A DNA stretch of 59,501 nucleotides from a virus: IMG/VR virus record IMGVR_UViG_3300023179_005665, positions 1 to 59,501 of that record; one strand, given 5' to 3'. Shown one piece after another: positions 3,925 through 43,636 of the stretch; within the stretch, counting starts at the first letter, position 1, and each line of letters starts with the position of its first letter. A program made the position numbers and the translations under genes. The notes below the pieces were generated by a model, which saw nothing but the letters and a program-made list of their open reading frames with translations, was not told where the DNA came from and made no database searches.

Positions 3925-6630
3925 TTAAATGTATGTTGCAGTTAATCTGTCGGTCCACCTAACATTTGTAGCTGTTGTTGTTATTATAGTTGTTCCATCA
4001 CTATTTATCACGTTTTGTTTTATTCTCCAAACACTACTACTTTCTGAACTACCAGCAGCTGCTACTCCAATATAATTAATATTACCAACATAATCACTCC
4101 TAACTTCTCCCAAACTTAAATTAATTTTAGGAACACTAATAAAACCTGTCCATTCCACAACATCTCCACTAACTGCGGGACTAGTTAATGTAAAAGAAGT
4201 TCCATTAGAAGCTGTAAAATCTTCACTATTAACTAATTTAATTCCATTATGATAAACATCTATATTATTAACAGAGTAGCCTCCATCAACAACAAATGAA
4301 CTTTTAGTAGTATTAACTAATTCATAATTTCTAAAACTAGAGGGCGAACTTACTGTAATGGTATTAGAAGCATCATTATAAGATACGCTGGTTGATCCTG
4401 AACCTACTATATTTAAATTTTCCGATAAATTATAAGATATTACTGTTCCTGAACCGTTACCAATAAGAGCAGTGCTAGATAATCCACTAACAGATACTGT
4501 TAAACTATTAGCATTATCATTATAGTTTAAATTAATTCCACTTCCTGCTACTAATAATGCTGCTACTCTATCATCAACTTCTTCTGTGGTCAATCCTAAA
4601 CTACCACTAACACTAACAGTATAATTACCACTAGTATTAACGACTGATATATTTGATCCTCCAGTTATATTTTTGACCGGCAGTAATCCGCTAACACTAC
4701 TATTAAAATCAGTAATATAATTAGAACCTATTCCTGAACTAGTGGTTAATATTCCACTCGCTCCTGTTGTTATTAATAAACCGCTAGTTGATCCGATAGT
4801 GCCGCTATTAGTAATATTCCCATGAGAATGACTTGTAGCTGCAAAATTTTCACTATTTGCCGTTGCAGCACTCCCTAGTCCGAGATTGGTGCGAGTGGTG
4901 GCGGCGATTGCGGCGGCATTTGCCCCAGTGAATAAAATAGGCAGATTGATTTGCATATTGCTTGTGCCGATCTGCATGTACGCAGATTCTCCAACTTCAA
5001 TAAGCAGCGCCCCGTCGGCGTAAACATGAACGGGAACGTCACTTTGATTAAAATCTACGGCATAGCATCTCACGGTGCCGTCTGTTTCGATGTCGCTGTT
5101 TTCGACGTACAGACTACCCCCAATAGTCACGCTACTGTCGAAAGAAATATCACTACTGCTCAACGGCAAATTAACAGTCGCGGCCGTGCCAAGGCCGAGA
5201 TTTGTACGGCTTGTCGCCGCCGCCGTTCCGCTGGTGTCATTGATAAATGACAGCGGCTTGGCAATGGCGAACGCCGTAGTGTCGGCAATCAGAATTGTTC
5301 CGAATCCACCGACATCAACCGAGATTCCGCCCTCGTTGTAAATCACGGCAGCAGGTTCGCCGCCAAGTGTGATTTGCCCGCCTGCGAACGTCCCGTAATC
5401 TTGAATGTCCGTACTGCTCAACGGCAAATTAGCAACGGCAGCACTTCCAAGACCAGTAACACTAACAATATAGTTTCCAGAACTAGAATTTACATTAATA
5501 TATCCACTTCCAGCTATATTTGTAACTGGTAATAGTCCGCTAACGCTACTATTAAAATCATAGATACTCTCTGATCGGATACCGCCTACAGAATTACATG
5601 CTTCAGTTAAGCCGTTTATATTTAATTGTTGTAAAAATATTGTTGTATCAGATCCTTTGTAAAATGTAGTACTATTATAGTCATCTGATTCTATTAATAT
5701 ATCATCTCCTTTGTGAATATGACCACTAATACTCACCGGAACATTATCAACATTTAAAATATTAAAATTTCCACTATTACACACTAACTGTCCGCTAGGA
5801 AGCAAATTAATATTTTTAGCACCAATACTAAAAGCATTAATATATGAGCTAGTCAAATATATACTATTTAATCCACTAGCATCAACTATACCTTTAACAT
5901 CAAGTTTATGACTAGGACTATTAGTACCCAAACCAATATATCCACCACTGGTAATCACAAAATCGTTTTGATCTGGTCTACCAGCAACTAATCTTCCGTC
6001 TTTAAAAACTTGAAAAACTGATTGTCCAATTTCATTATTAGCATTTAAGACAACATCACTATTATTATCAGAAATACTAAATAAAACTCCATTAGATCCC
6101 TCGACAGTAAATAAACTAGCCCCACTAACCGGTGAATAAACATGAAGAGTTGATAGTGGTTCTTGAGTACCTATGCCAATATTTCCACTATTACTTATTA
6201 AATTAATATTTCCATTAGTATTGACTATATTAATATCGCCACTATTACTAGAATTTGATTCTATATTAAAATCATAATAGCCAGATCGTCCAACTTCTAA
6301 AGCATTACCTTCTATAGATACCTTTCTATATGCTGTGGCCGGATTACCTAATCCAGAAGGTTTTAATACAATATTTCTACCAGTAAAAGATTCTATAGTA
6401 TCAACTTTAATTTTATCATTTGCTGATAATTGTGCAAAAATTCCAGTAGATGCTGTAAAACTAGGTATATTACTATTAATAATAGGTAAACTATTCCATG
6501 ATGAAGATCCATCACCAATTTTTAATATATTATTAGTAACATCAAAACCAGGTTCGCCGCTAGCTAAAACTATATTAGCAGCTTCCCACTGAGTTGATAA
6601 TCCTCTTTTTAGTAGTATAGTATTACTCAT
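3925..6630 (-). CDS. Long tail fibre with Mtd_N-like head and mosaic shaft
   Basis: A 901-residue fibre. Residues 1-50 (ILLKRGLSTQWEAAN...GEPGFDVTNNILKIGDG) match the N-terminal domain found on many phage fibres and named for the major tropism determinant. The shaft repeats VSGLLPVxNI and NYxVSVSG elements. Residues about 390-590 hold LGLG(T/S)AA-type collar repeats, RTNLGLGTAA and TRTNLGLGSAA. The C-terminus has a VDGGYSVNNIDVYHNG module, then a YIGVAAAGSSESSSVWRI module ending TDRLTATYI, both common at the ends of cyanomyovirus fibres. The middle is much more GC-rich than the flanks (separate entry). Receptor binding is inferred from this architecture. Confidence 0.88.
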   Translation of the reverse strand: MSNTILLKRGLSTQWEAANIVLASGEPGFDVTNNILKIGDGSSSWNSLPIINSNIPSFTASTGIFAQLSANDKIKVDTIESFTGRNIVLKPSGLGNPATAYRKVSIEGNALEVGRSGYYDFNIESNSSNSGDINIVNTNGNINLISNSGNIGIGTQEPLSTLHVYSPVSGASLFTVEGSNGVLFSISDNNSDVVLNANNEIGQSVFQVFKDGRLVAGRPDQNDFVITSGGYIGLGTNSPSHKLDVKGIVDASGLNSIYLTSSYINAFSIGAKNINLLPSGQLVCNSGNFNILNVDNVPVSISGHIHKGDDILIESDDYNSTTFYKGSDTTIFLQQLNINGLTEACNSVGGIRSESIYDFNSSVSGLLPVTNIAGSGYINVNSSSGNYIVSVTGLGSAAVANLPLSSTDIQDYGTFAGGQITLGGEPAAVIYNEGGISVDVGGFGTILIADTTAFAIAKPLSFINDTSGTAAATSRTNLGLGTAATVNLPLSSSDISFDSSVTIGGSLYVENSDIETDGTVRCYAVDFNQSDVPVHVYADGALLIEVGESAYMQIGTSNMQINLPILFTGANAAAIAATTRTNLGLGSAATANSENFAATSHSHGNITNSGTIGSTSGLLITTGASGILTTSSGIGSNYITDFNSSVSGLLPVKNITGGSNISVVNTSGNYTVSVSGSLGLTTEEVDDRVAALLVAGSGINLNYNDNANSLTVSVSGLSSTALIGNGSGTVISYNLSENLNIVGSGSTSVSYNDASNTITVSSPSSFRNYELVNTTKSSFVVDGGYSVNNIDVYHNGIKLVNSEDFTASNGTSFTLTSPAVSGDVVEWTGFISVPKINLSLGEVRSDYVGNINYIGVAAAGSSESSSVWRIKQNVINSDGTTIITTTATNVRWTDRLTATYI
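4860..5460 (-). other. GC-rich, compositionally foreign cassette inside the tail fibre gene
   Basis: Within the 901-residue fibre gene this stretch is visibly richer in G and C than the AT-rich sequence either side (runs such as ggcggcgattgcggcggc). The reading frame continues without interruption. Both ends carry the same collar repeat motif (LGLGSAA / GLGSAAVANLPLSS), and a third copy lies inside. This is what recombination between fibre repeats with a foreign fibre gene would leave. Confidence 0.6.
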
Positions 6631-6642
6631 AATTATTTTTTG

Positions 6643-7460
6643 TTATTTTGATGATTTTGACCCGCAGCTCATAATGCCAAGACAAGTTTTGAAATATTCA
6701 ACAAGCTCCGACTTCTGAACGCCGCACATCATTTTCTAAAATTTCTTTTAGGATTGGACTATATCTTTTATACACTAGTATAATCAGGGCGCTCTTGCCT
6801 GTTATTAAGACAAACCATTTTGTCTCAGGTAGTCTCTACACCTTCGCAAAGATGGCTTTGCGCTTGGCTCGGTATTGCCATCAGCATTATCTGTTAAGGT
6901 TTCACCGAATTCACCCCGAATGGGCCTTTAAATTTTTTAACTTATATGTTCCTCCTATTATTTCTAAATAAAACTATAGTATTATTAACTATAACTCCAT
7001 ATCTATATATTCTATATTGGTATAATGGTTTAATTTTAATTGGCGGATTAAGACCTGGGTTTTTATCTGTATATTCTAAAAATAATACTTCAATAAACAC
7101 TTTACTATTATTAGGTAGTTCATCAGTAAACATGAGAGGTATAGTATCAGATATTTCTGTCGGTGGATTTTCATTGATAATATCAGTACAATAAACTCGA
7201 CTTTTTAAATTTAACGTTCGAAGGTCCATTTTTTCAGATTTTTTATTAAAAACAGCATTTGTGGTTTTTTCAAAAGTGAAAATATTATTGCTATAATTAT
7301 AGTAATATCGTCGTACTGATTTTTTAGTTAAATTAGGCAATGTTGTATCTGGTCCATAGCATCTAGCATTAAAAAAATCCTGATTTTGATTATTATAAAT
7401 ACCAACTTTATTTAAACAATTTTGAATTTTAACTATATTTTTTGGTCCATAAGTTCTCAT
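6643..7460 (-). CDS. Tail-module protein apparently split by a group I intron
   Basis: Exon 1 runs from the ATG at 7460 through about 172 codons (MRTYGPKNIVKIQNCLNK...VLFRNNRRNI) to a TAA at 6942-6944 that probably lies inside the intron. After the intron core an open frame resumes and ends at 6643 (ELVEYFKTCLG, IMSCGSKSSK, stop). I could not fix the 5' splice site exactly, so the joined protein is tentative. The second part could also be a short separate ORF from ATGs near 6733-6738. The start overlaps the 1110-residue fibre gene (ATGA). Exon 1 contains RRYYYNYSNNIF and YQYRIYRYGVIV stretches but no known domain. Confidence 0.55.
6715..6945 (-). ncRNA. ORF-less group I intron, IA-like
   Basis: The minus strand carries the ordered group I core: P element GAATTCGGTGAAACC (about 6898-6912), Q element AATACCGAGCCAAGCG (6861-6876), R element GTGTAGAGACTA (6830-6841) and S element AAGATATAGTCC (6756-6767). 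P6 is a perfect hairpin, CGCAAAG with CTTTGCG. Between R and S are a perfect GACAAA/TTTGTC hairpin and a CAGG/CCTG hairpin, as expected for the P7.1/P7.2 extensions of subgroup IA, then ATAC/GTAT. After S a stem CTAAAA/TTTTAG closed by a GAAA tetraloop fits P9. There is no endonuclease ORF inside. The ends given are approximate. Confidence 0.85.
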
Positions 7461-10400
7461 AATGATCCTCCATCAATAATACAATTAGTCAATACTGTTG
7501 GATTATTAATATTATTTCCTACTATACTAGTGAGACCAGATAATGATCCATAGGTTCCACCAATACTAACTGTTGTTGATCCTAAAGTTAAACTATTAGA
7601 TATTGTTGATATTAATCCGTTACTTGTTGTGCTTAATAATACACCAGAAGTTGAACCTATCGTACCACTATTGGTTATATTGCCATGAGAATGAACGCTA
7701 TTAGCATAATCTCCACTGGGTTGTACTCCAGTAATATTAATTGTATAAGTACCACTAGTATTAGAAATATTAGCATATTCACTACCAACTATATTTTTAA
7801 CCGGTAATAAACCACTAACACTACTATTGAAATTAGTTATATCAGAACTAATATGAGAGTGACCGCTAACGCTAACTCTAATCCCATTCTGCTGTAAGGT
7901 TGTAAAATTACCACTAGGAGCTGTAATGGCTCCTATAAAAGAAGCTCCGTTAAGATTAGCTTTACCAGCCAAACTGTTAGTAACCGTTGTGCTAAAATTA
8001 GCATCATTCCCTAATGCGCTTGCTAACTCATTAAGAGTGTCTAATGTTGACGGGGCCGAGCCAACAAGATTACTAATCTCATTTCTTACAAATGCTGTAC
8101 TAGCGATTTGATTAGTATTTGTTCCACTACTAGCTGTTGGAGCTGTCGGTATTCCTGTTAATGCTGGACTATTTAACGGAGCATATATTCCACTCACCAA
8201 ACTATTTACACTACTATTAAAATTAGTAATATCATTAGACAAATGACCATGTCCAACTAAACTATAATTACCGCTGGGCTGTAAGCCTGTAACACTAACA
8301 GTGTATGTTCCATTAGAGTTACTAATATTAACATATCCAGAACCAGACACATTTTTAACGGGTAATAGCCCGCTTACTCCACTACCAAAATTAGTTATAT
8401 CAGAAACTATATGACTATGGCCAACGGTGCTGTAATTACCACTAGGCTGTAATCCAGATGTAGAAATGGTTAATGTATCTAGTACTGAATCATAATTGAT
8501 CGTTATAAATGATCCTGCTAATAATGTGGTAGTTAAATTATTTTGAACCCCACTAGCAAAATTAGCGATATCAGTATAATTATGATAGTGTCCAGAAACT
8601 GAAACGGGAATTCCACTAACTGATAAACTATTAAAATTAGCTCCAGAGGTATACGCTAAACCAGTAGCAGATATATTAAAATTAGTACCAATAGTTGAAA
8701 TATATATTCCACTATTACCTGTTATATTTGTAATTGGTAATAAACCACTTACGCTATTATTAAAATTAGTAATATAATTAGAACTTATTCCTGAACTAGT
8801 TGTTAATAAACCACTTGGTCCTGTTGTTACTAATAATCCACTAACCGATCCTATATTTCCACTAGAAGAAATATTGCCAAGATTATTTAAACTAGCTAAA
8901 GATCCTACTCCTGATACTTGAGACAAATTAATATTTTCTGCTGATCCTAATAATACATATAATCCAGAATTAAAAACTGATCCACTATTACCATCGGGAG
9001 ATTTTTTTTGATATACTCGACCATTATATGTATATCGACGATAAATATATTGATCTTGATTGGGCTGCCAGATGACTGATGGTAATAAAGATCTATATCT
9101 AAATAAGTCAAAATCTGGTAATATTGAAGATAACTGAGGACTAACAATATTTCCACCCTGGTCTTGATAGCTTAAAGAATTGCATATTATTAAATTATCA
9201 ATAATTCCCCCAAAACTATCTATAGCATCAGTTAGTCCATTTGCTTCTAGTTGTGCTAGAAATCCATCGGCACTACCATTATCAGAATAATTACCTCCTA
9301 AATTATCTGATACTATATCACTTATCTTTATATAATTTTTTGTTGCAAGACTTCCCAAATCTGAGTTTTTTGCGTAATTACCGCTAGGCTGCAATCCTGT
9401 TACACTGATATTATAAATTCCACTAGTATTAGTAATATTAACATATCCCGATCCTGTAATATTTTTAACTGGTAATAGTCCACTAACCGCACTACCAAAA
9501 TTAGTATTTAACAATAATACATTAGATGATAATCTAGCATCGGGCAAAATACCAGTAGTTAATAAATTAGCATTAATTGTGGGAGGAGCTGTAGCTATTA
9601 CAGCGCTTGTAAAATCAGTAATTTGACTAGATGGTATTCCAGAAACAACAGTTAGTAGTCCGCTTGTGGTTGTTATTACTAATTGTCCGGATAGTGATCC
9701 TATTCTTCCATCATTAGTAATATTGCCATGAGTATGAGATAAAGATGCTTTGGTATCTAATCCAGATTGAGTAGCTAAACTAATTGGTTTATTAAGATCA
9801 CTAGTATTGTTAACATTACTTAATCCAACATCATTTTTAGTTAGAGTAACAATGCCTATACGACCAGCAACACTTTGTACGGGGGCAGCGCCGCTAGCTC
9901 TAGCATCAGTATAATATTTATTTATACTACCTTCTGGCACACTATCAGTACTACCAGGAGAAGAGCTAATTTCTATATAACTACTACCACCCCATCTATA
10001 GGTTTTATTATTATCTAGAGTAACATAAATTTTACCAGGTTCACCAATAGATGGAAAATTTCCACTACTACTATATTCTAACACATCATCAACATAGCTG
10101 GGTAATTGAGATGCTGGAATCAATCCATTCACCAGTATAGCATAACTACCCGATATTTGTTTGTTATCTAAAGCAGACTGAAGTCCTGTAACGTCACCAA
10201 TATTATGAATATGTCCAACAACACTGTAGTCACCAGATGGTTGTAGTCCAGTTACATTAATAGTTAAAGTATTATTAGGATCATTATAATTTAAATCTAT
10301 ATACGATCCACTCTTTAGCAAATCATTTACTCTATCATCAACTTGTTCGCTAGTTAATCCAAATTGCCCAGTGACACTTACTTGAAAATCTTTATCAGTA

Positions 10401-10789
10401 ATACTGACCGATATGCCACTACCAGCACTAACATTTTGAACAGGCAATAAACCACTAACAGCACTATTAAAATCTGTTACTTCAGAAACAGTATGACGAT
10501 GTCCTACCGTGCTATAATTACCACTTGGTTGTAATCCAGTAGTATAAATTTTAATTATACCAGAATTTAATGGATCTATAGATATACCTGATGATCCAAC
10601 TATAGTATTATTTAATACAGTTTGAATATTATAGCTAAAGTCATTTGGTAACAAAGCTATATCGTGAGATACTAATATCTCTGATGAATTATTTTGTATA
10701 ATCTCTATTGTTGGAGGATTATCTCCAATAGTAGCTTCTAGCTCTATAAAATTAGAAGATGATTCTACAATCTCTACGCTATAACTCAT
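7457..10789 (-). CDS. Giant tail fibre with VTGLQPSGNY repeats
   Basis: A 1110-residue fibre built from repeated blocks: VTGLQPSGNYSxVGHxH, then DITNFxSxVSGLLPVKN, then SGxGYVNISNxxGTYxVSVTG. Each block is roughly 60-80 residues and recurs at least six times. A domain at about residues 870-940 (TAPTASSGTNTNQIASTAFV, then SAPSTLDTLNELASALGNDA) is the classic phage collar/tail-fibre repeat. The N-terminus (SVEIVESSSNFIELEATIG) lacks a Mtd-type head. The last three codons overlap the split gene. Probably a long trimeric adhesin shaft; no enzyme motif seen. Confidence 0.88.
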   Translation of the reverse strand: MSYSVEIVESSSNFIELEATIGDNPPTIEIIQNNSSEILVSHDIALLPNDFSYNIQTVLNNTIVGSSGISIDPLNSGIIKIYTTGLQPSGNYSTVGHRHTVSEVTDFNSAVSGLLPVQNVSAGSGISVSITDKDFQVSVTGQFGLTSEQVDDRVNDLLKSGSYIDLNYNDPNNTLTINVTGLQPSGDYSVVGHIHNIGDVTGLQSALDNKQISGSYAILVNGLIPASQLPSYVDDVLEYSSSGNFPSIGEPGKIYVTLDNNKTYRWGGSSYIEISSSPGSTDSVPEGSINKYYTDARASGAAPVQSVAGRIGIVTLTKNDVGLSNVNNTSDLNKPISLATQSGLDTKASLSHTHGNITNDGRIGSLSGQLVITTTSGLLTVVSGIPSSQITDFTSAVIATAPPTINANLLTTGILPDARLSSNVLLLNTNFGSAVSGLLPVKNITGSGYVNITNTSGIYNISVTGLQPSGNYAKNSDLGSLATKNYIKISDIVSDNLGGNYSDNGSADGFLAQLEANGLTDAIDSFGGIIDNLIICNSLSYQDQGGNIVSPQLSSILPDFDLFRYRSLLPSVIWQPNQDQYIYRRYTYNGRVYQKKSPDGNSGSVFNSGLYVLLGSAENINLSQVSGVGSLASLNNLGNISSSGNIGSVSGLLVTTGPSGLLTTSSGISSNYITNFNNSVSGLLPITNITGNSGIYISTIGTNFNISATGLAYTSGANFNSLSVSGIPVSVSGHYHNYTDIANFASGVQNNLTTTLLAGSFITINYDSVLDTLTISTSGLQPSGNYSTVGHSHIVSDITNFGSGVSGLLPVKNVSGSGYVNISNSNGTYTVSVTGLQPSGNYSLVGHGHLSNDITNFNSSVNSLVSGIYAPLNSPALTGIPTAPTASSGTNTNQIASTAFVRNEISNLVGSAPSTLDTLNELASALGNDANFSTTVTNSLAGKANLNGASFIGAITAPSGNFTTLQQNGIRVSVSGHSHISSDITNFNSSVSGLLPVKNIVGSEYANISNTSGTYTINITGVQPSGDYANSVHSHGNITNSGTIGSTSGVLLSTTSNGLISTISNSLTLGSTTVSIGGTYGSLSGLTSIVGNNINNPTVLTNCIIDGGSL

Positions 10790-11230: not shown

Positions 11231-12232
11231 CTAACTATATTTAGCGTATACAGATCCCAAATCTACGGGAGTTAATGAATATCCTTGACCCGGAGATAAA
11301 CTTTCTATTATAGAATTTACTTGATTATATCTATTTGTAATAAAAGGACCGCCAGATGGTATCCACCAAGCGCATAAAACTACTAGCTCATTATCTATAA
11401 TTAAAAATAAGGGATTTCCACTATCTCCAGTTATTATTGGTTCACTAAAATTAGCAAATTGTCCAGGATAAGGTACGGTTGTTCCGCTCCAAGTATATTG
11501 AAGATTGGGGTCAATATCACTGGCTGACACTAATTGAAACCATATGGTATTAGGAGAGTTGCCACTACTATACAGATCACATCCATTAAATATTTTTACA
11601 ATGGCTTTTTCTTCTTGATCTAAGCCAATAGCATATAATAATGGCATATTTCTAAAACTATTTATTTGAATATTATAATTATCATAAATTGATCCTATAA
11701 TTGAAATATTCATATAATCAGTAAAATTAGGAGGCAAAACTTTAGCTATTTTAATATTAGAAGGAACCTCGCTATCTAAAAGAGCTATAGCAATATCGGT
11801 AGAGTCATAACCATATTGTATAATATTTCGTTTTATAGCATTATTATTTTCGTCAACAAATATGAGAGGAGTTCCGCCGTTGGGTAATATGCTAGTTACA
11901 AAGTGTTTAGCGAACAGTGCATGTTTTTTTGTTATTAATGTTCCTGCTCTTTGCCACCAATTTGCTCCGCTTCTTTGAGCAGGACTAAAACAACTAATAT
12001 TGCTAACTCCATTTAACCAGCAATTAGGATTACGAACCCATATTCCAGCATCTATTGGTCCTCCGTAAGGATTTTGATATGAGTATACATATCTAGTATC
12101 AGGACTTTTCCCAAACAATCTATTAGTTGTTGATATATTAATATGATTAGAAATAATATTTTTATTTATAGAAGTATCTTTAAAAGATATTTTATCTTTT
12201 AAAATTTTATTATTTTTCATATAAAATGGCAT
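11231..12232 (-). CDS. Trypsin-like serine protease encoded within the tail module
   Basis: In this 333-residue protein the segment GTLITKKHALFAKHF (97-111) matches the histidine strand of the chymotrypsin fold. YDSTDIAIALLD (142-153) supplies the aspartate and IITGDSGNPLF (267-277) the serine. The likely triad is His110, Asp146, Ser271. There is no signal peptide; the N-terminal 45 residues are basic and low in complexity. It starts on the stop of the downstream-coupled appendage gene (TAATG). A protease among fibre genes could cleave fibres or chaperone domains, or act on host surface proteins as a virion enzyme. Confidence 0.78.
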   Translation of the reverse strand: MPFYMKNNKILKDKISFKDTSINKNIISNHINISTTNRLFGKSPDTRYVYSYQNPYGGPIDAGIWVRNPNCWLNGVSNISCFSPAQRSGANWWQRAGTLITKKHALFAKHFVTSILPNGGTPLIFVDENNNAIKRNIIQYGYDSTDIAIALLDSEVPSNIKIAKVLPPNFTDYMNISIIGSIYDNYNIQINSFRNMPLLYAIGLDQEEKAIVKIFNGCDLYSSGNSPNTIWFQLVSASDIDPNLQYTWSGTTVPYPGQFANFSEPIITGDSGNPLFLIIDNELVVLCAWWIPSGGPFITNRYNQVNSIIESLSPGQGYSLTPVDLGSVYAKYS

Positions 12233-12888
12233 TAGACTACTCCTAATAAACTAGATCCATTAATTCCACGTTTTAGGGGATAAGAGGTTCTATTTTGGAA
12301 TGTTACAGTTCCGCCATATGATGCTCCTGCTGAAGTTGGATAGGCGAAGGAGCTGTGATTGAATGTGGCGTTGCCAAAGATCATGCCGGCATTAAACGAA
12401 TTGTCATTAAATGTAGCATTTCCGTTAATAGTTCCTTCGTTAGTTGAAATATAATTTAATGTTACAGCTCCATTTATAATGGAAGAGGTATATGAATTAT
12501 TGAGTATTGTATTACCATTTAAAGTACCACGATTCCATGACATATTATTAAAAATTGCATAACCATTAACATTAATAGAATAGTTCTCTGAATAGTCATT
12601 AAAAATAGCATCTCCTAAAACCGTGCCGCCACCATCGGTTGATGAACCATTATTAAAAGTTGCTGAATTTGTAGCAATGAATGCGATATAAAAGACACAA
12701 GATTCACAAATTATATTTGCAACAGTGGGTGTGTCTCCCGTGTTGTTATCACACGTTCCACTCAACACAACATCATCTATACTTGTTGGTAAGTTTGTTG
12801 CTGGAATAGTATGTAGACTATCGATCCACCAATTTGATATATTATTCCAATCAGTATCAACCGCCGCGTTGTAATACAGTGTTGCCAT
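12232..12888 (-). CDS. Asn-rich beta-repeat appendage protein
   Basis: The 218-residue protein starts MATLYYNAAVDTDWNN, an N-terminal module also present inside the next gene (residues about 422-470 there). It continues with short repeats of the type GNATFNDxSxNxGxIxGNATF from about residue 85 to 195, typical of a beta-solenoid. The C-terminus is YPLKRGINGSSLLGVV. Its start is coupled to the neighbouring 603-residue gene through TAATG. It looks like a partial duplicate of that gene's C-terminal half. Likely structural. Confidence 0.7.
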   Translation of the reverse strand: MATLYYNAAVDTDWNNISNWWIDSLHTIPATNLPTSIDDVVLSGTCDNNTGDTPTVANIICESCVFYIAFIATNSATFNNGSSTDGGGTVLGDAIFNDYSENYSINVNGYAIFNNMSWNRGTLNGNTILNNSYTSSIINGAVTLNYISTNEGTINGNATFNDNSFNAGMIFGNATFNHSSFAYPTSAGASYGGTVTFQNRTSYPLKRGINGSSLLGVV

Positions 12889-14699
12889 TATATCATCCCC
12901 AGAATGTTAGAGTTGTTGATTCCGTATCGTAATGGATAGGGTGTGCGAGTTCCAAGAAATATTGTTCCTATTGATGAGTTTACGTCTGTGTATGAGCTGT
13001 CGTTGAATGTGGCGTTGCCGTTCACGTAGCCAGAGTAATTGACCGAACTGTTGTTGAAAATGGCGTTGCCAAGGACAAAGCCATTGTTGTTCGAATATTC
13101 ATTGAATGTCACGTTGCCATTGATAGTGCCAGTGTTGTATGAACTATCGTTGAATGTAACATTGCCTGTAATAGTACCAACATTGACTGAAAAGTTACTG
13201 AATATCGCATTGCCAGATACGGCGATAGTAATAGCTAAAAACAATTCATTCGGAGCATTGAAAGTAAGGTTCACAATAGTCGGCTCGCTACCGCTGTTAG
13301 TAGAACACATTGCAGTCATGATAGCATCATCAATACTCGTTGGTAAACTTGTTGCTGGTACTGTGTGATTGCTGTCCATCCACCAGTTGCCTAGATTATT
13401 CCAATCAGTATCAACAGCGGCGTTATAATAGAGGGTGCGTGGTTGTGGAACTATTTGGCCGTTGAGGTAAGTATTCCCATTCCAACTACCAGACCCGCTA
13501 CTGTCTAATGTTGTTTGTTGACCATTTATGTAATATGTATTATCGCACTCGTTCCAACCACTAAAATTATATGCTGGCGAGCCACTAGCGTATTTAGTAT
13601 TATTCCAACAGCCATCGCCATTTTGGTCAAGCGTGGTTGGCTCGCCGTAAAGGTAATATGTATTATTCCAATAGCCATCACCATTTTGATCAAGAGTTGT
13701 TGCTACCGATAAAATATAAAAAGTTCCAAGCCAATAGCCAGTATTGTTTCCGTTGTCTATTACCGAACCGTTTGAACCATCAAAATTTCCATTCTCAGAA
13801 GGGTCACCTAATCCCTTACTTACAGATATTATCTTAAATGTAGCATATTGAATTGTAACAATACCGCCAGAACCACCATGACTAAAGCCACTATTTCCCC
13901 CATCAGAATATATATTATTACTATTGCTGTTATTTAATGATATAGAACCACCACTACCAGCTGAACCATTATAAATATAACCACCATTAGAATATATATC
14001 TCGTGATGTGCTATTGGTAAGAGTTATGGAGCCGCCATTGCCTGCTTGCATACTAAAGCTATCATTACCATTAGAAATTATATCTCTACTAATACTATTA
14101 ACAAGAGTTACAGAACCTCCAGTGCCTCCAGTATTATCTCCACTAGCGTTGGTATATATATCTTTACAAGTACTATTAATAAGATTTATTGATCCGCCAT
14201 CGCCAAATCCTTCTGTTTTTCCGCCATTAGAATATATATCTTCACTAACAGTATCAGTAAGAGATATTGATCCAGCAGATAAACCATTCTGTCCGGGAGT
14301 TACGTCGCCAGCATTAGCGTATATATCTCCAAGATTAATTGATTTATCGCTAACTACAGATATATTGTTTCCACTTGTACCGGGAGTAATCTCGGTATTA
14401 GTATCATAATCAAAAACCGCATCGATACCATTACCATCTATTCCACCAAGAAAACTTTGAGTTGCCCCAGCACCCCTGACAGCAATCCTGTTAGGCCATT
14501 CGCTAGCATTTGCAACATTAAGATCAACACCTCCAAAGTTACCCGCACCAAAATCTAAAACCTTGTTGCCACTTCCAGCATAAGCAACTTCAAAAGCTTT
14601 CTGAGCAGTTAAAAAAGGAGATCCGATGCTACCGTCTCCAGTAGCATCATTCCCGTTACTTCTTACATAGATTGGCGAATAGCCAGACAAATCTGCCAT
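12888..14699 (-). CDS. Pectate-lyase-like beta-helix appendage protein with several repeat blocks
   Basis: The 603-residue protein opens with YVRSNGNDATGDGSIGSPFL, the classic start of parallel beta-helix proteins. Residues 115-290 hold about six repeats of GGSIxLxNSxSxDIYSNGG. Residues 325-415 hold a different tandem repeat (TTLDQNGDGYWNNTYYLYGE type). The last 180 residues (TLYYNAAVDTDWNNLGNWW, then FNDSSYNTGTINGNVTF repeats) are paralogous to the downstream 218-residue protein. No catalytic residues of pectate lyases are recognisable, so binding or display is more likely than glycan cleavage. Confidence 0.75.
   Translation of the reverse strand: MADLSGYSPIYVRSNGNDATGDGSIGSPFLTAQKAFEVAYAGSGNKVLDFGAGNFGGVDLNVANASEWPNRIAVRGAGATQSFLGGIDGNGIDAVFDYDTNTEITPGTSGNNISVVSDKSINLGDIYANAGDVTPGQNGLSAGSISLTDTVSEDIYSNGGKTEGFGDGGSINLINSTCKDIYTNASGDNTGGTGGSVTLVNSISRDIISNGNDSFSMQAGNGGSITLTNSTSRDIYSNGGYIYNGSAGSGGSISLNNSNSNNIYSDGGNSGFSHGGSGGIVTIQYATFKIISVSKGLGDPSENGNFDGSNGSVIDNGNNTGYWLGTFYILSVATTLDQNGDGYWNNTYYLYGEPTTLDQNGDGCWNNTKYASGSPAYNFSGWNECDNTYYINGQQTTLDSSGSGSWNGNTYLNGQIVPQPRTLYYNAAVDTDWNNLGNWWMDSNHTVPATSLPTSIDDAIMTAMCSTNSGSEPTIVNLTFNAPNELFLAITIAVSGNAIFSNFSVNVGTITGNVTFNDSSYNTGTINGNVTFNEYSNNNGFVLGNAIFNNSSVNYSGYVNGNATFNDSSYTDVNSSIGTIFLGTRTPYPLRYGINNSNILGMI
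13455..13727 (-). repeat. Tandem coding repeat of about 20-22 codons
   Basis: About four to five imperfect copies encode TTLDQNGDGYWNNTYYLYGE-like units. The second and third copies are almost identical at the DNA level (agccatcgccattttggtca versus agccatcaccattttgatca), a sign of recent repeat growth. Confidence 0.7.
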
Positions 14700-16947: not shown

Positions 16948-18288
16948 TTAGGTGGTAATGCCATTTCCTTGACTATCTAGAGATACGCATGATGGTGCAA
17001 TGTTGCTCTGTGTTGCAAACAACCAGTATCCGCTATTCGTCCCATTTCCTTTATAGAAAGCGGCTTTATACCATTCGTTTTCTGAACACAAAAAGAATAA
17101 AGCGTTATTGGATCTAGAAGGATTATTTTGACTCATATTATATGCTCCAGTTTCTGTAGTAGAAGCATCTTGTAAACCACTAGGTTTACCATTATGTAGC
17201 CAATTACAATATCTAGCACAACTATTCCATGTTACTAAATTTACTGGTTTATTAGCCATGTTTGTTTTAGCAGAGTATGTATAATTTCCAACAGATCCTG
17301 ACCTATTGATTCCGCCATATGGTGAAAAATACATATTATTTACATACAATCCATGAGTATCTGTTTTAGCTACTGCATTTAAAAATTCTATATATTCTTG
17401 ATTAGTAACTTCATATGTTCCTATATAATATAGATATGAAACACTACCATATCCAGTAGTATCACTACTATTGTTTATATCTCCAACAGGCAATAAATTG
17501 GTATATATATTAGATGATTGTATTGCGGCAACTCTCATACCTATATATTCGCTATATGACGAAGCAGATGTATAGTTTCGATAAGAAGAACTCAGATAAG
17601 CAGCATCATAAGCTAGATTACCACCTCTAAAAACTCTAGAGTCTGAACCTACTAAGCCCTCCGTCCATTCCCAAACATTACCAGCAAAATCATAGGCTCC
17701 ATAATAGCTTGGTTTACCATTAGTACCAACTGTTGAAACATTACCTCCGCAATTATTATAGTTTGCAGTATTAGAAACTAATACTATTGCTTTAGAAGGT
17801 GTGATAGTAGGAGTAATTGAGGGCGTTAATGTTGATGTTGCGGTTACTGTTGGCGTGATTGATGTAGTAACTGATGGAGTAATAGTATTGGTCACTGATG
17901 GCGTTGGAGAAACTAGTGAAGAAGTCGGTGTTTGAGTTAAAGACGTAGTAATAGATGGAGTAATGGTATTGGTTACTGTTGGTGTGGGTGTTATTGGAGA
18001 AGTTGTTGGAGTCGGAGTAACTGGAGTTATAGTAGGTGTTGGTGTTAGTGATTGTGTTGGAGTAGGAGATAAAGGCACATATACTAGAGGGTCTGATAGC
18101 CATAGATTATATTCTATGTCGTTGTTAATAAATTTATTACTATATTTTAAATCTATATTATTGATATTAGCAATAGATCCATTGTATTCTCTATGATAGG
18201 TACTATTTTTATTACCAACACTAACAGAAATAGATAACCTATTATTTACAGGTTGTCCACTAATTGCGCTATAAATAATAGGTGACAT
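16948..18288 (-). CDS. Fibre-like protein with circularly permuted FGE/SUMF1 (C-type-lectin-fold) domain
   Basis: In this 446-residue protein, residues 1-73 are a head and 74-165 a Pro/Thr/Ser linker. Residues 174-256 carry what is normally the C-terminal half of an FGE-sulfatase domain: ANYNN, YDFAGNVWEW (199-208), RVFRGG (218-223), then IGMRVAA. Only afterwards, at 264-446, comes the usual N-terminal half: GDxxNxxDTTGYGSVSYLY, IGTYEVTNQEYIEFL (289-303), NKPVNLVTW, YCNWL (360-364), CSENEWYKAA (401-410), YWLFATQSN. The motif order is a circular permutation. The domain is likely a ligand-binding display fold, not a sulfatase maturase, as in phage tropism proteins. Neighbours are fibre genes. 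Start at ATG 18288. Confidence 0.85.
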   Translation of the reverse strand: MSPIIYSAISGQPVNNRLSISVSVGNKNSTYHREYNGSIANINNIDLKYSNKFINNDIEYNLWLSDPLVYVPLSPTPTQSLTPTPTITPVTPTPTTSPITPTPTVTNTITPSITTSLTQTPTSSLVSPTPSVTNTITPSVTTSITPTVTATSTLTPSITPTITPSKAIVLVSNTANYNNCGGNVSTVGTNGKPSYYGAYDFAGNVWEWTEGLVGSDSRVFRGGNLAYDAAYLSSSYRNYTSASSYSEYIGMRVAAIQSSNIYTNLLPVGDINNSSDTTGYGSVSYLYYIGTYEVTNQEYIEFLNAVAKTDTHGLYVNNMYFSPYGGINRSGSVGNYTYSAKTNMANKPVNLVTWNSCARYCNWLHNGKPSGLQDASTTETGAYNMSQNNPSRSNNALFFLCSENEWYKAAFYKGNGTNSGYWLFATQSNIAPSCVSLDSQGNGITT

Positions 18289-42320: not shown

Positions 42321-42632
42321 TTATGGTCTAGTTTTAACCTTCTGCAAATATGACGAACAATCAGATTCTACAAACTTATTGTAACTTCTGTAATTGTATA
42401 GATGACCGAATATTAAATGACAAGGATTATCACAAAGAGTAATTAGATTATCAAATTCTAGTTCTAGTTCTGGATTTATATGTACTGGTATTTTGTGATG
42501 AACCTCCAACTTTTTATTTGCCCCACAAGCAGCGCAATAAGGATATTTTTCTAAATGTTTTTTACGAATACTGCTCCATTTAGGAGATCTAACAGAATAT
42601 CTGACTTTACTAAATAAACCTAAAATATTCAT
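42321..42632 (-). CDS. HNH endonuclease
   Basis: The 103-residue protein has CAACGANKKLEVHHKIPVHI then LEFDNLITLCDNPCHLIFGH, a compact HNH/McrA-type domain with two cysteine pairs around the metal site. Its start overlaps the stop of the actin-like gene. It could be a mobile endonuclease or, given its position near DNA-handling genes, a processing nuclease. Confidence 0.82.
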   Translation of the reverse strand: MNILGLFSKVRYSVRSPKWSSIRKKHLEKYPYCAACGANKKLEVHHKIPVHINPELELEFDNLITLCDNPCHLIFGHLYNYRSYNKFVESDCSSYLQKVKTRP

Positions 42633-43636
42633 TATAACACTTTAGATGCAATTAAGCATCCTTTAGCAACTGCGTGTAAGGGGTCTTGAGCGTGCTTGAC
42701 TATCTTGATAGGTAAAGGAAAATTATTTTCTTTTAATTTTTCAGTAAAAGTATCTACATATCCTTTAGCTAAAGAGGTTCCACCTGCTATGACAACCGTT
42801 AATGGCTCTTTGAATTTTGGTAATAAAGGATGATTATTCAAAGCCTGACTGATATATTTAGTAACATAATCAATTAGTCTCACATAATATGCAGACATAG
42901 CATTTAAAATAGGGTTGTCGTTTTCTTCTCCTACGGTAAAATCCCCGTGCTCTTTCTCTGCTTGTACAACACTATCTTTTTCACCAGTAGCAACAGCGAC
43001 CATTCTATCGAGCCAATCCCCGCTATGAGTCACAGAGAATTTCACAGTTGGCTCTCCATTAAGCATAACACATACGTTTTGCATACCAGAGCCGCACGAC
43101 ACAGCGATCCCTGTATAATCTTCTTTTTCTAATTCAGCATAACATAAGGCTTCTGCTTCGTTTATAGCTCTAGCATCATACCCGCATTCTGCTAAAATTG
43201 ATTTAACAACATCTTCATGATAGCCTACATCAAAATCATCGTCTTGAATATCTACTGGTTGTGCGGGGACGCAGAACACAAGTTTAGTATTAGGCTCTGG
43301 GGCTGTCCCCGCGACCTCTTTTAAAATAAAAGACAAAACACGGCGAGCGTCTTTTTCTTTTGCTGACACGACCCCTTTGTACATCGGTCTTTTTGCTGTG
43401 TCATTTCTTTCTATTGCTTTTTCTATGGCATCTTTTCCTAAGAGAATAAAAGATCCATCTGTATCTTTGATAAAAACTTTACCAGCAAGACCTTTCTCTA
43501 TCATTTTGCTCGCTACTGGAGTTGTAGGTCTGATAACATAAAAAGCATCTCTAAACTCTGTGTATTCTATACCTTTATTAGATTCTTTTGATAGAACAAT
43601 AAAACTAGTACCGACGTCTAAACCTATTCCTGCCAT
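42632..43636 (-). CDS. Actin/ParM-like ATPase
   Basis: The 334-residue protein has an actin-superfamily fold. Phosphate-1 motif is IGLDVGTSFIVLSK (4-17), a phosphate-2-like motif is YTGIAVSCGSGMQNVCVMLN, and the adenosine motif is LTVVIAGGTSLAKGYVDTF. This matches plasmid and phage segregation actins or Hsp70-type ATPases. In phages such filaments segregate or position DNA. No ParR-like partner is recognised next to it; the gene downstream is a small HNH gene and upstream a membrane protein. Confidence 0.82.
   Translation of the reverse strand: MAGIGLDVGTSFIVLSKESNKGIEYTEFRDAFYVIRPTTPVASKMIEKGLAGKVFIKDTDGSFILLGKDAIEKAIERNDTAKRPMYKGVVSAKEKDARRVLSFILKEVAGTAPEPNTKLVFCVPAQPVDIQDDDFDVGYHEDVVKSILAECGYDARAINEAEALCYAELEKEDYTGIAVSCGSGMQNVCVMLNGEPTVKFSVTHSGDWLDRMVAVATGEKDSVVQAEKEHGDFTVGEENDNPILNAMSAYYVRLIDYVTKYISQALNNHPLLPKFKEPLTVVIAGGTSLAKGYVDTFTEKLKENNFPLPIKIVKHAQDPLHAVAKGCLIASKVL

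Follow-up and report, generated by a model that had tools for sequence, protein, structure and literature searches.

The virus record IMGVR_UViG_3300023179_005665 of IMG/VR, analysed here at its full length of 59,501 bases (the window), encodes on its minus strand a 446-residue protein (positions 16948-18288) that carries an FGE-type (PF03781) domain with its two halves in swapped order. The protein is probably a modular adhesin on the phage surface whose C-terminal tip consists of a complete, circularly permuted FGE-type domain of the C-type-lectin fold; the domain belongs to a phage family that is most simply derived from one permutation event.

Order of the domain halves

The reading frame is uninterrupted, and the permuted domain comprises about 277 residues and ends at the stop codon. 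PF03781 matched the protein with an E-value of 3.4e-17 and 63.4 bits (curated cut-off 23.3), and both halves individually scored above the cut-off. Profile positions 156-254 were matched at 17527-17766 and positions 37-125 at 17050-17430, which on the minus strand puts 156-254 ahead of 37-125 and breaks the native profile order. The original prediction had described the same order from motifs, and all of them were located by script: GNVWEW at residues 203-208, RVFRGG at 218-223, IGMRVA at 249-254, YEVTNQEYIEFL at 292-303, YCNWL at 360-364, SENEWYKAA at 402-410 and YWLFATQ at 421-427. The order thus stands, but the first motif starts at 203 and not at 199. The frame contains no second copy of either half, again as predicted.

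We then compared the domain with A3, a profile of 32 native-order bacterial relatives with 283 positions. As read, the domain aligned in two pieces, with profile positions 192-282 first and 4-183 second. After the halves were swapped back in silico, a check of the kind that the original prediction had proposed, a single alignment covered positions 4-281 of 283 with 323.5 bits. Because the rotated domain aligns in one piece, no part of it is missing. In a scan of 28 rotations in 10-residue steps the best single alignments were found at the expected joint, with 324.7 bits at rotation 90 compared with 257.1 bits for the unrotated domain. The new chain opening lies between ...CVSLDSQGNG and NTANYNN...; in native relatives the corresponding residues directly follow one another. 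The former termini are connected through about ten residues. An order-specific DNA pattern did not occur in 100 shuffles of the window, which argues that the swapped order is not due to chance; the pattern also matches three other viral contigs. Each part is therefore present once, in rotated order, with the old termini joined and the new termini within one loop, as in a circular permutation.

AlphaFold2 (AF2) was run with 78 permuted family members, as a single chain. The permuted domain was predicted as one closed domain with a pLDDT of 95.1 and a pTM of 0.93, similar to the native bacterial relative used as a control (92.9 and 0.92), and not as the two half-domains that the original prediction had set against a permutation. 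Relative to the native control, the permuted model has its secondary-structure elements in rotated order, and as modelled the domain has the strands and helices of the FGE-type C-type-lectin fold. Foldseek searches of the PDB gave only partial matches for the permuted model, among them TvpA and FGE (mostly ~50-125 columns; best E-value 0.08, TMq 0.24, over about 100 columns), whereas the native control matched FGE, TvpA, PvdO and CarF over their full length, with E-values down to 1e-10 and more than 300 columns. Since Foldseek depends on chain order, this is the outcome expected of a permutant. In the C-type-lectin fold the N- and C-terminal strands pair as antiparallel beta1/beta5 (PMC6328139), and hence the old ends could be joined.

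The two halves could in principle also pair between chains. The native C-terminal half of one chain (segment d) might complete the native N-terminal half (segments a, b and c) of its neighbour in a fibre oligomer, so that the protein would be permuted in sequence and swapped in space; phage fibres are commonly trimers. We consider such an intersubunit arrangement unlikely, as the single AF2 chain closes with high confidence and the old termini are connected by a short linker that fits a beta5-beta1 turn. In addition, some relatives consist of hardly more than a single permuted domain, among them L044 (315 residues) and L065 (329 residues), and others hold two to four copies at irregular spacing.

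The permuted family and its origin

To describe domain order we used four segment profiles, a-b-c-d in native order. A profile search of IMG/VR gave 158 relatives, and 77 loci were kept, with E-values of the kept viral matches from 1e-55 to 1e-112. The order d-a-b-c was found in 59 viral open reading frames (ORFs) and was contained in about 19 more, about 75 ORFs in all, on dozens of contigs of up to 244 kb. This answers the original prediction's call for a search of phage proteins for the same order. Pfam alone recovered the swapped order in 22 records. Viral proteins contain up to four irregularly spaced permuted domains, and such a domain lies within 25 residues of the protein start in 15 ORFs and within 15 residues of the stop in 23. 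Among permuted domains with enough flanking sequence, 41 of 74 have a Pro/Thr linker on their N-terminal side and 46 of 73 have one on their C-terminal side. The permuted order is shared by a large family, apparently undescribed so far, whose members come from uncultured phages of often very large size.

The picture among bacterial relatives differed. In the best 80 of at least 592 stretches, a-b-c-d was present in 81 ORFs, several had it in tandem, and none had d-a-b-c as a unit of its own; the best cellular match had an E-value of 7e-52. Permuted copies of cellular origin would outrank this match if their similarity equalled that of the kept viral ones, and permuted copies may occur among the stretches outside the best 80. 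The viral and cellular scans were made with related, non-identical alignments (A1 and A2). A search of IMG/VR seeded with native bacterial sequences found both orders. Its 30 native-order members are mostly standalone proteins of 300-400 residues, several of them on short contigs, and may partly be cellular.

For phylogenetic analysis, 223 domains were all put in one order. FastTree placed 93 rows labelled as permuted and two native rows in one set with a support of 99, and a smaller IQ-TREE tree likewise united 43 permuted rows with the same two native ones. Constraining all permuted rows to stay together improved the likelihood over that of the free search (p-AU 0.776 in the approximately unbiased (AU) test), and for this reason one permutation event at the origin of the phage family is the simplest reading. 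Bacteria also encode tandem native a-b-c-d-a-b-c-d proteins with short linkers (L086, L088 and L110), which would offer the intermediate for such an event.

Several relatives are rearranged in other ways. A further REARRANGEMENTS is a second permutant with the order c-d-a-b, cut between GAYPL and YWIPS, in L010:3822-4721 and L073:4974-5948. Its c-d junction is continuous as in native proteins, L010 has both permutants within one chain, and no locus beyond these two was recovered when the search for c-d-a-b was widened. A third row with this label, L075_VP2_1363, proved to be a parsing artefact of neighbouring domains and was excluded from the smaller tree. The 3063-residue protein of L075:408-9599 has a native-order FGE domain that interrupts a permuted one between its segments a and b, along with further permuted copies. 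In L022:1-3378 a permuted domain is directly followed by a native one (dabcabcd), and in the tree the native one clusters with native domains of bacteria (L154). The permuted domain of L007:5054-6337 contains an insertion of roughly 140 residues between b and c with the motif GRLYLGIND, which may resemble a LecA-like galactose-binding motif.

Probable ligand binding and genomic neighbourhood

In the C-type-lectin fold the beta3-beta5 stretch is the putative ligand site (PMC6328139). Within the permuted family variability peaks between WEW and GFR, at 2.74 bits compared with 1.0-1.8 bits elsewhere, and segment d holds the stretch that corresponds to the variable region of diversity-generating retroelement (DGR) proteins. 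The original prediction that the permutation moves the usual variable half next to the Pro/Thr linker agrees with this, as segment d follows the stalk and is by entropy the most variable part of the family. Large family members carry as partner domains Laminin_G_3, RCC1- and NHL-type propellers and DUF285. Judged from sequence, the protein of the window is most likely a virion adhesin with the permuted domain as its ligand-binding tip.

The comparison with DGR proteins in the original prediction held for the fold only. A DGR variable protein that owes its diversity to a reverse transcriptase encoded elsewhere in the genome would fit the fold subtype shared with Mtd, TvpA and TaqVP, the location of the highest variability, and the Mtd_N-bearing protein also encoded in the window. 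However, an RVT_1 search had no match in 43 viral records, which include contigs of 200-244 kb and are possibly incomplete, and three control genomes did match. The variability is moreover of the ordinary divergent kind and is present in native cellular relatives too. As RVT_1 is absent from these records, we regard a DGR target as very unlikely. We give equally little credence to an enzymatic role like that of FGE, EgtB or PvdO, in which host or virion components would be modified. The superfamily does hold catalytic and non-catalytic members, but FGE chemistry requires two cysteines after RGG, and this catalytic pair is absent in 70 of 70 permuted domains. Binding also suits the repeated beads alongside lectin-like and propeller domains better than catalysis does.

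An assembly artefact can practically be dismissed, and so can tandem native domains read wrongly (a-b-c-d/a-b-c-d resembles d-a-b-c in its middle part, and the inner halves of the bacterial tandems have this appearance): the same order and breakpoint in about 75 viral ORFs on independent contigs, at protein ends or between Pro/Thr linkers, exclude the assembly join that the original prediction had named as an objection, and the single-copy halves of the window protein, with a stalk before and a stop after them at true protein ends, exclude a misread tandem. The original interpretation as a permutation is supported, with the qualification that the protein is no isolated case and belongs to a large phage clade.

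Three observations weigh against our interpretation of a permuted phage adhesin of single origin. First, the closed fold comes from a single-chain model. Second, the free trees place the bacterial native-order L136 and L153 within the permuted clade, a position that the AU test does not require; possible explanations are transfer with reversion, or tree error. Third, the cellular native relatives are also most variable in the WEW-to-GFR stretch (2.41 bits), and thus variability alone is no proof of receptor binding.

In our interpretation, a native domain was probably duplicated in tandem and the outer halves were then lost. According to the computed alignments and models, the old terminal strands beta1 and beta5 are joined by the short linker, and the chain opens within a long loop, the one that connects the second helix region to the first strand of the ligand-face sheet. 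The permuted domain would sit at the tip of the Pro/Thr stalk, or form a bead in a string with further adhesion modules, and may bind host surface ligands via its variable beta3-beta5 region, without FGE catalysis. In a broader view, towards which we lean with less confidence, the permuted domains form a phage-specific superfamily of one origin, an interchangeable bead on giant stalked adhesins of uncultured large phages that is still being re-cut (second cut point, native-in-permuted insertions, permuted-native tandems). Phages would in that case use permutation as a way to mount a ligand-binding domain anew.

Table 1. Parts of the permuted protein and a nearby gene in the window.
Feature	Position	Strand	Basis
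Whole gene: N-terminal domain, Pro/Thr stalk and permuted FGE-type C-type-lectin-fold domain	16948..18288	-	open frame; PF03781 E 3.4e-17
Small N-terminal domain, residues 1-76	18061..18288	-	pairwise BLASTP to L010 N-terminus, E 1e-8
Pro/Thr/Ser-rich stalk, about residues 77-167	17788..18060	-	read from sequence
Native C-terminal half, now first (segment d: GNVWEW, RVFRGG, IGMRVA), about residues 173-256	17521..17772	-	PF03781 profile 156-254; A3 profile 192-282; entropy
New linker AIQSSNIYTN from old C-terminal to old N-terminal strand, about residues 255-266	17488..17523	-	flanking AF2 strands; A3 piece boundaries
Native N-terminal half, now last (segments a, b, c: YEVTN, CNWLHN, NEWYKAA helices, YATQ), about residues 265-446	16951..17496	-	PF03781 profile 37-125; A3 profile 4-183
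Gene two upstream, 184 residues	18706..19260	-	homologue is N-terminus of 504-residue L008 protein

The small N-terminal domain shares 30% identity with the N-terminus of L010, a relative that also has permuted domains, and is possibly a virion-attachment domain. The product of the gene two upstream is 48% identical to the N-terminus of the L008 protein over 178 residues (E-value 6e-54). L008 has this homologue fused to a stalk and a permuted domain like those of the window protein, a link between the permuted protein and this gene neighbourhood. Tail-fibre-like proteins are encoded nearby at 7457-10789 and 3925-6630. The latter (minus strand) has 901 residues and carries Mtd_N, known as the N-terminal domain of the tropism determinant of Bordetella phage; the record itself had no reverse transcriptase match. 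Near the fibre genes, 12232-12888 and 12888-14699 (both minus strand) encode Asn/Gly/Ser-rich repetitive proteins with GNATFNDSS-type repeats, which share a duplicated 'TLYYNAAVDTDWNN' module. An actin-like protein (Volactin, PF25216) is encoded at 42632-43636 (minus strand), and its only relatives in the phage collection belong to two huge phages from metagenomes, with genomes of 485 and 595 kb. As it is closest to these, the window may come from a large phage. A search for the T4-like major capsid protein gp23 as a marker had no match anywhere and was uninformative.

Comparison with known systems

We found no report of a permuted FGE domain in the open-licence papers searched. A BFVD structure search had no match, and tblastn of four permuted domains against the isolated phage genomes of INPHARED gave weak partial matches and no permuted one. 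Order-dependent structure and profile searches see permuted proteins as fragments only. A survey of 224 jumbo phages found no FGS domains (PMC7824862). The permuted family, however, is present on contigs of 201-244 kb, and contigs of jumbo-phage size therefore do carry an FGE domain. The C-type-lectin fold is a main scaffold for hypervariable binding proteins in phages and bacteria. A permuted family that is natural and widespread, and for which native relatives, tandem intermediates and a second cut point exist, offers a good system in which to study the origin of permutation and its effect on a binding module.

The closest known proteins are those of the PF03781/SUMF1-like subfamily of Planctomycetota and Verrucomicrobiota (L086-L165), which are homologous to the permuted domain in both halves. 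They are cellular and in native order, whereas the permuted ones are swapped, stalked and often multi-copy phage proteins. PHROG family phrog_18508 ('kinase'; phage FGE-domain proteins) is also homologous to the window protein in both halves, but its profile has the native order, with the N-half match at 53-114 and the C-half match at 164-264. Records of the Microcystis phage LMM01 type matched only the C half, and weakly. The DGR variable proteins Mtd, TvpA and TaqVP have the same most-variable region as the permuted family; they keep the native order, while the family is swapped and its 43 searched records have no reverse transcriptase. Circular permutation itself is known from jumbo phages, which encode permuted M.EcoKI-like and M.MboIIA-like DNA methylases (PMC7824862). 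These are likewise permuted conserved domains in large phages, but their fold is unrelated to the one described here.
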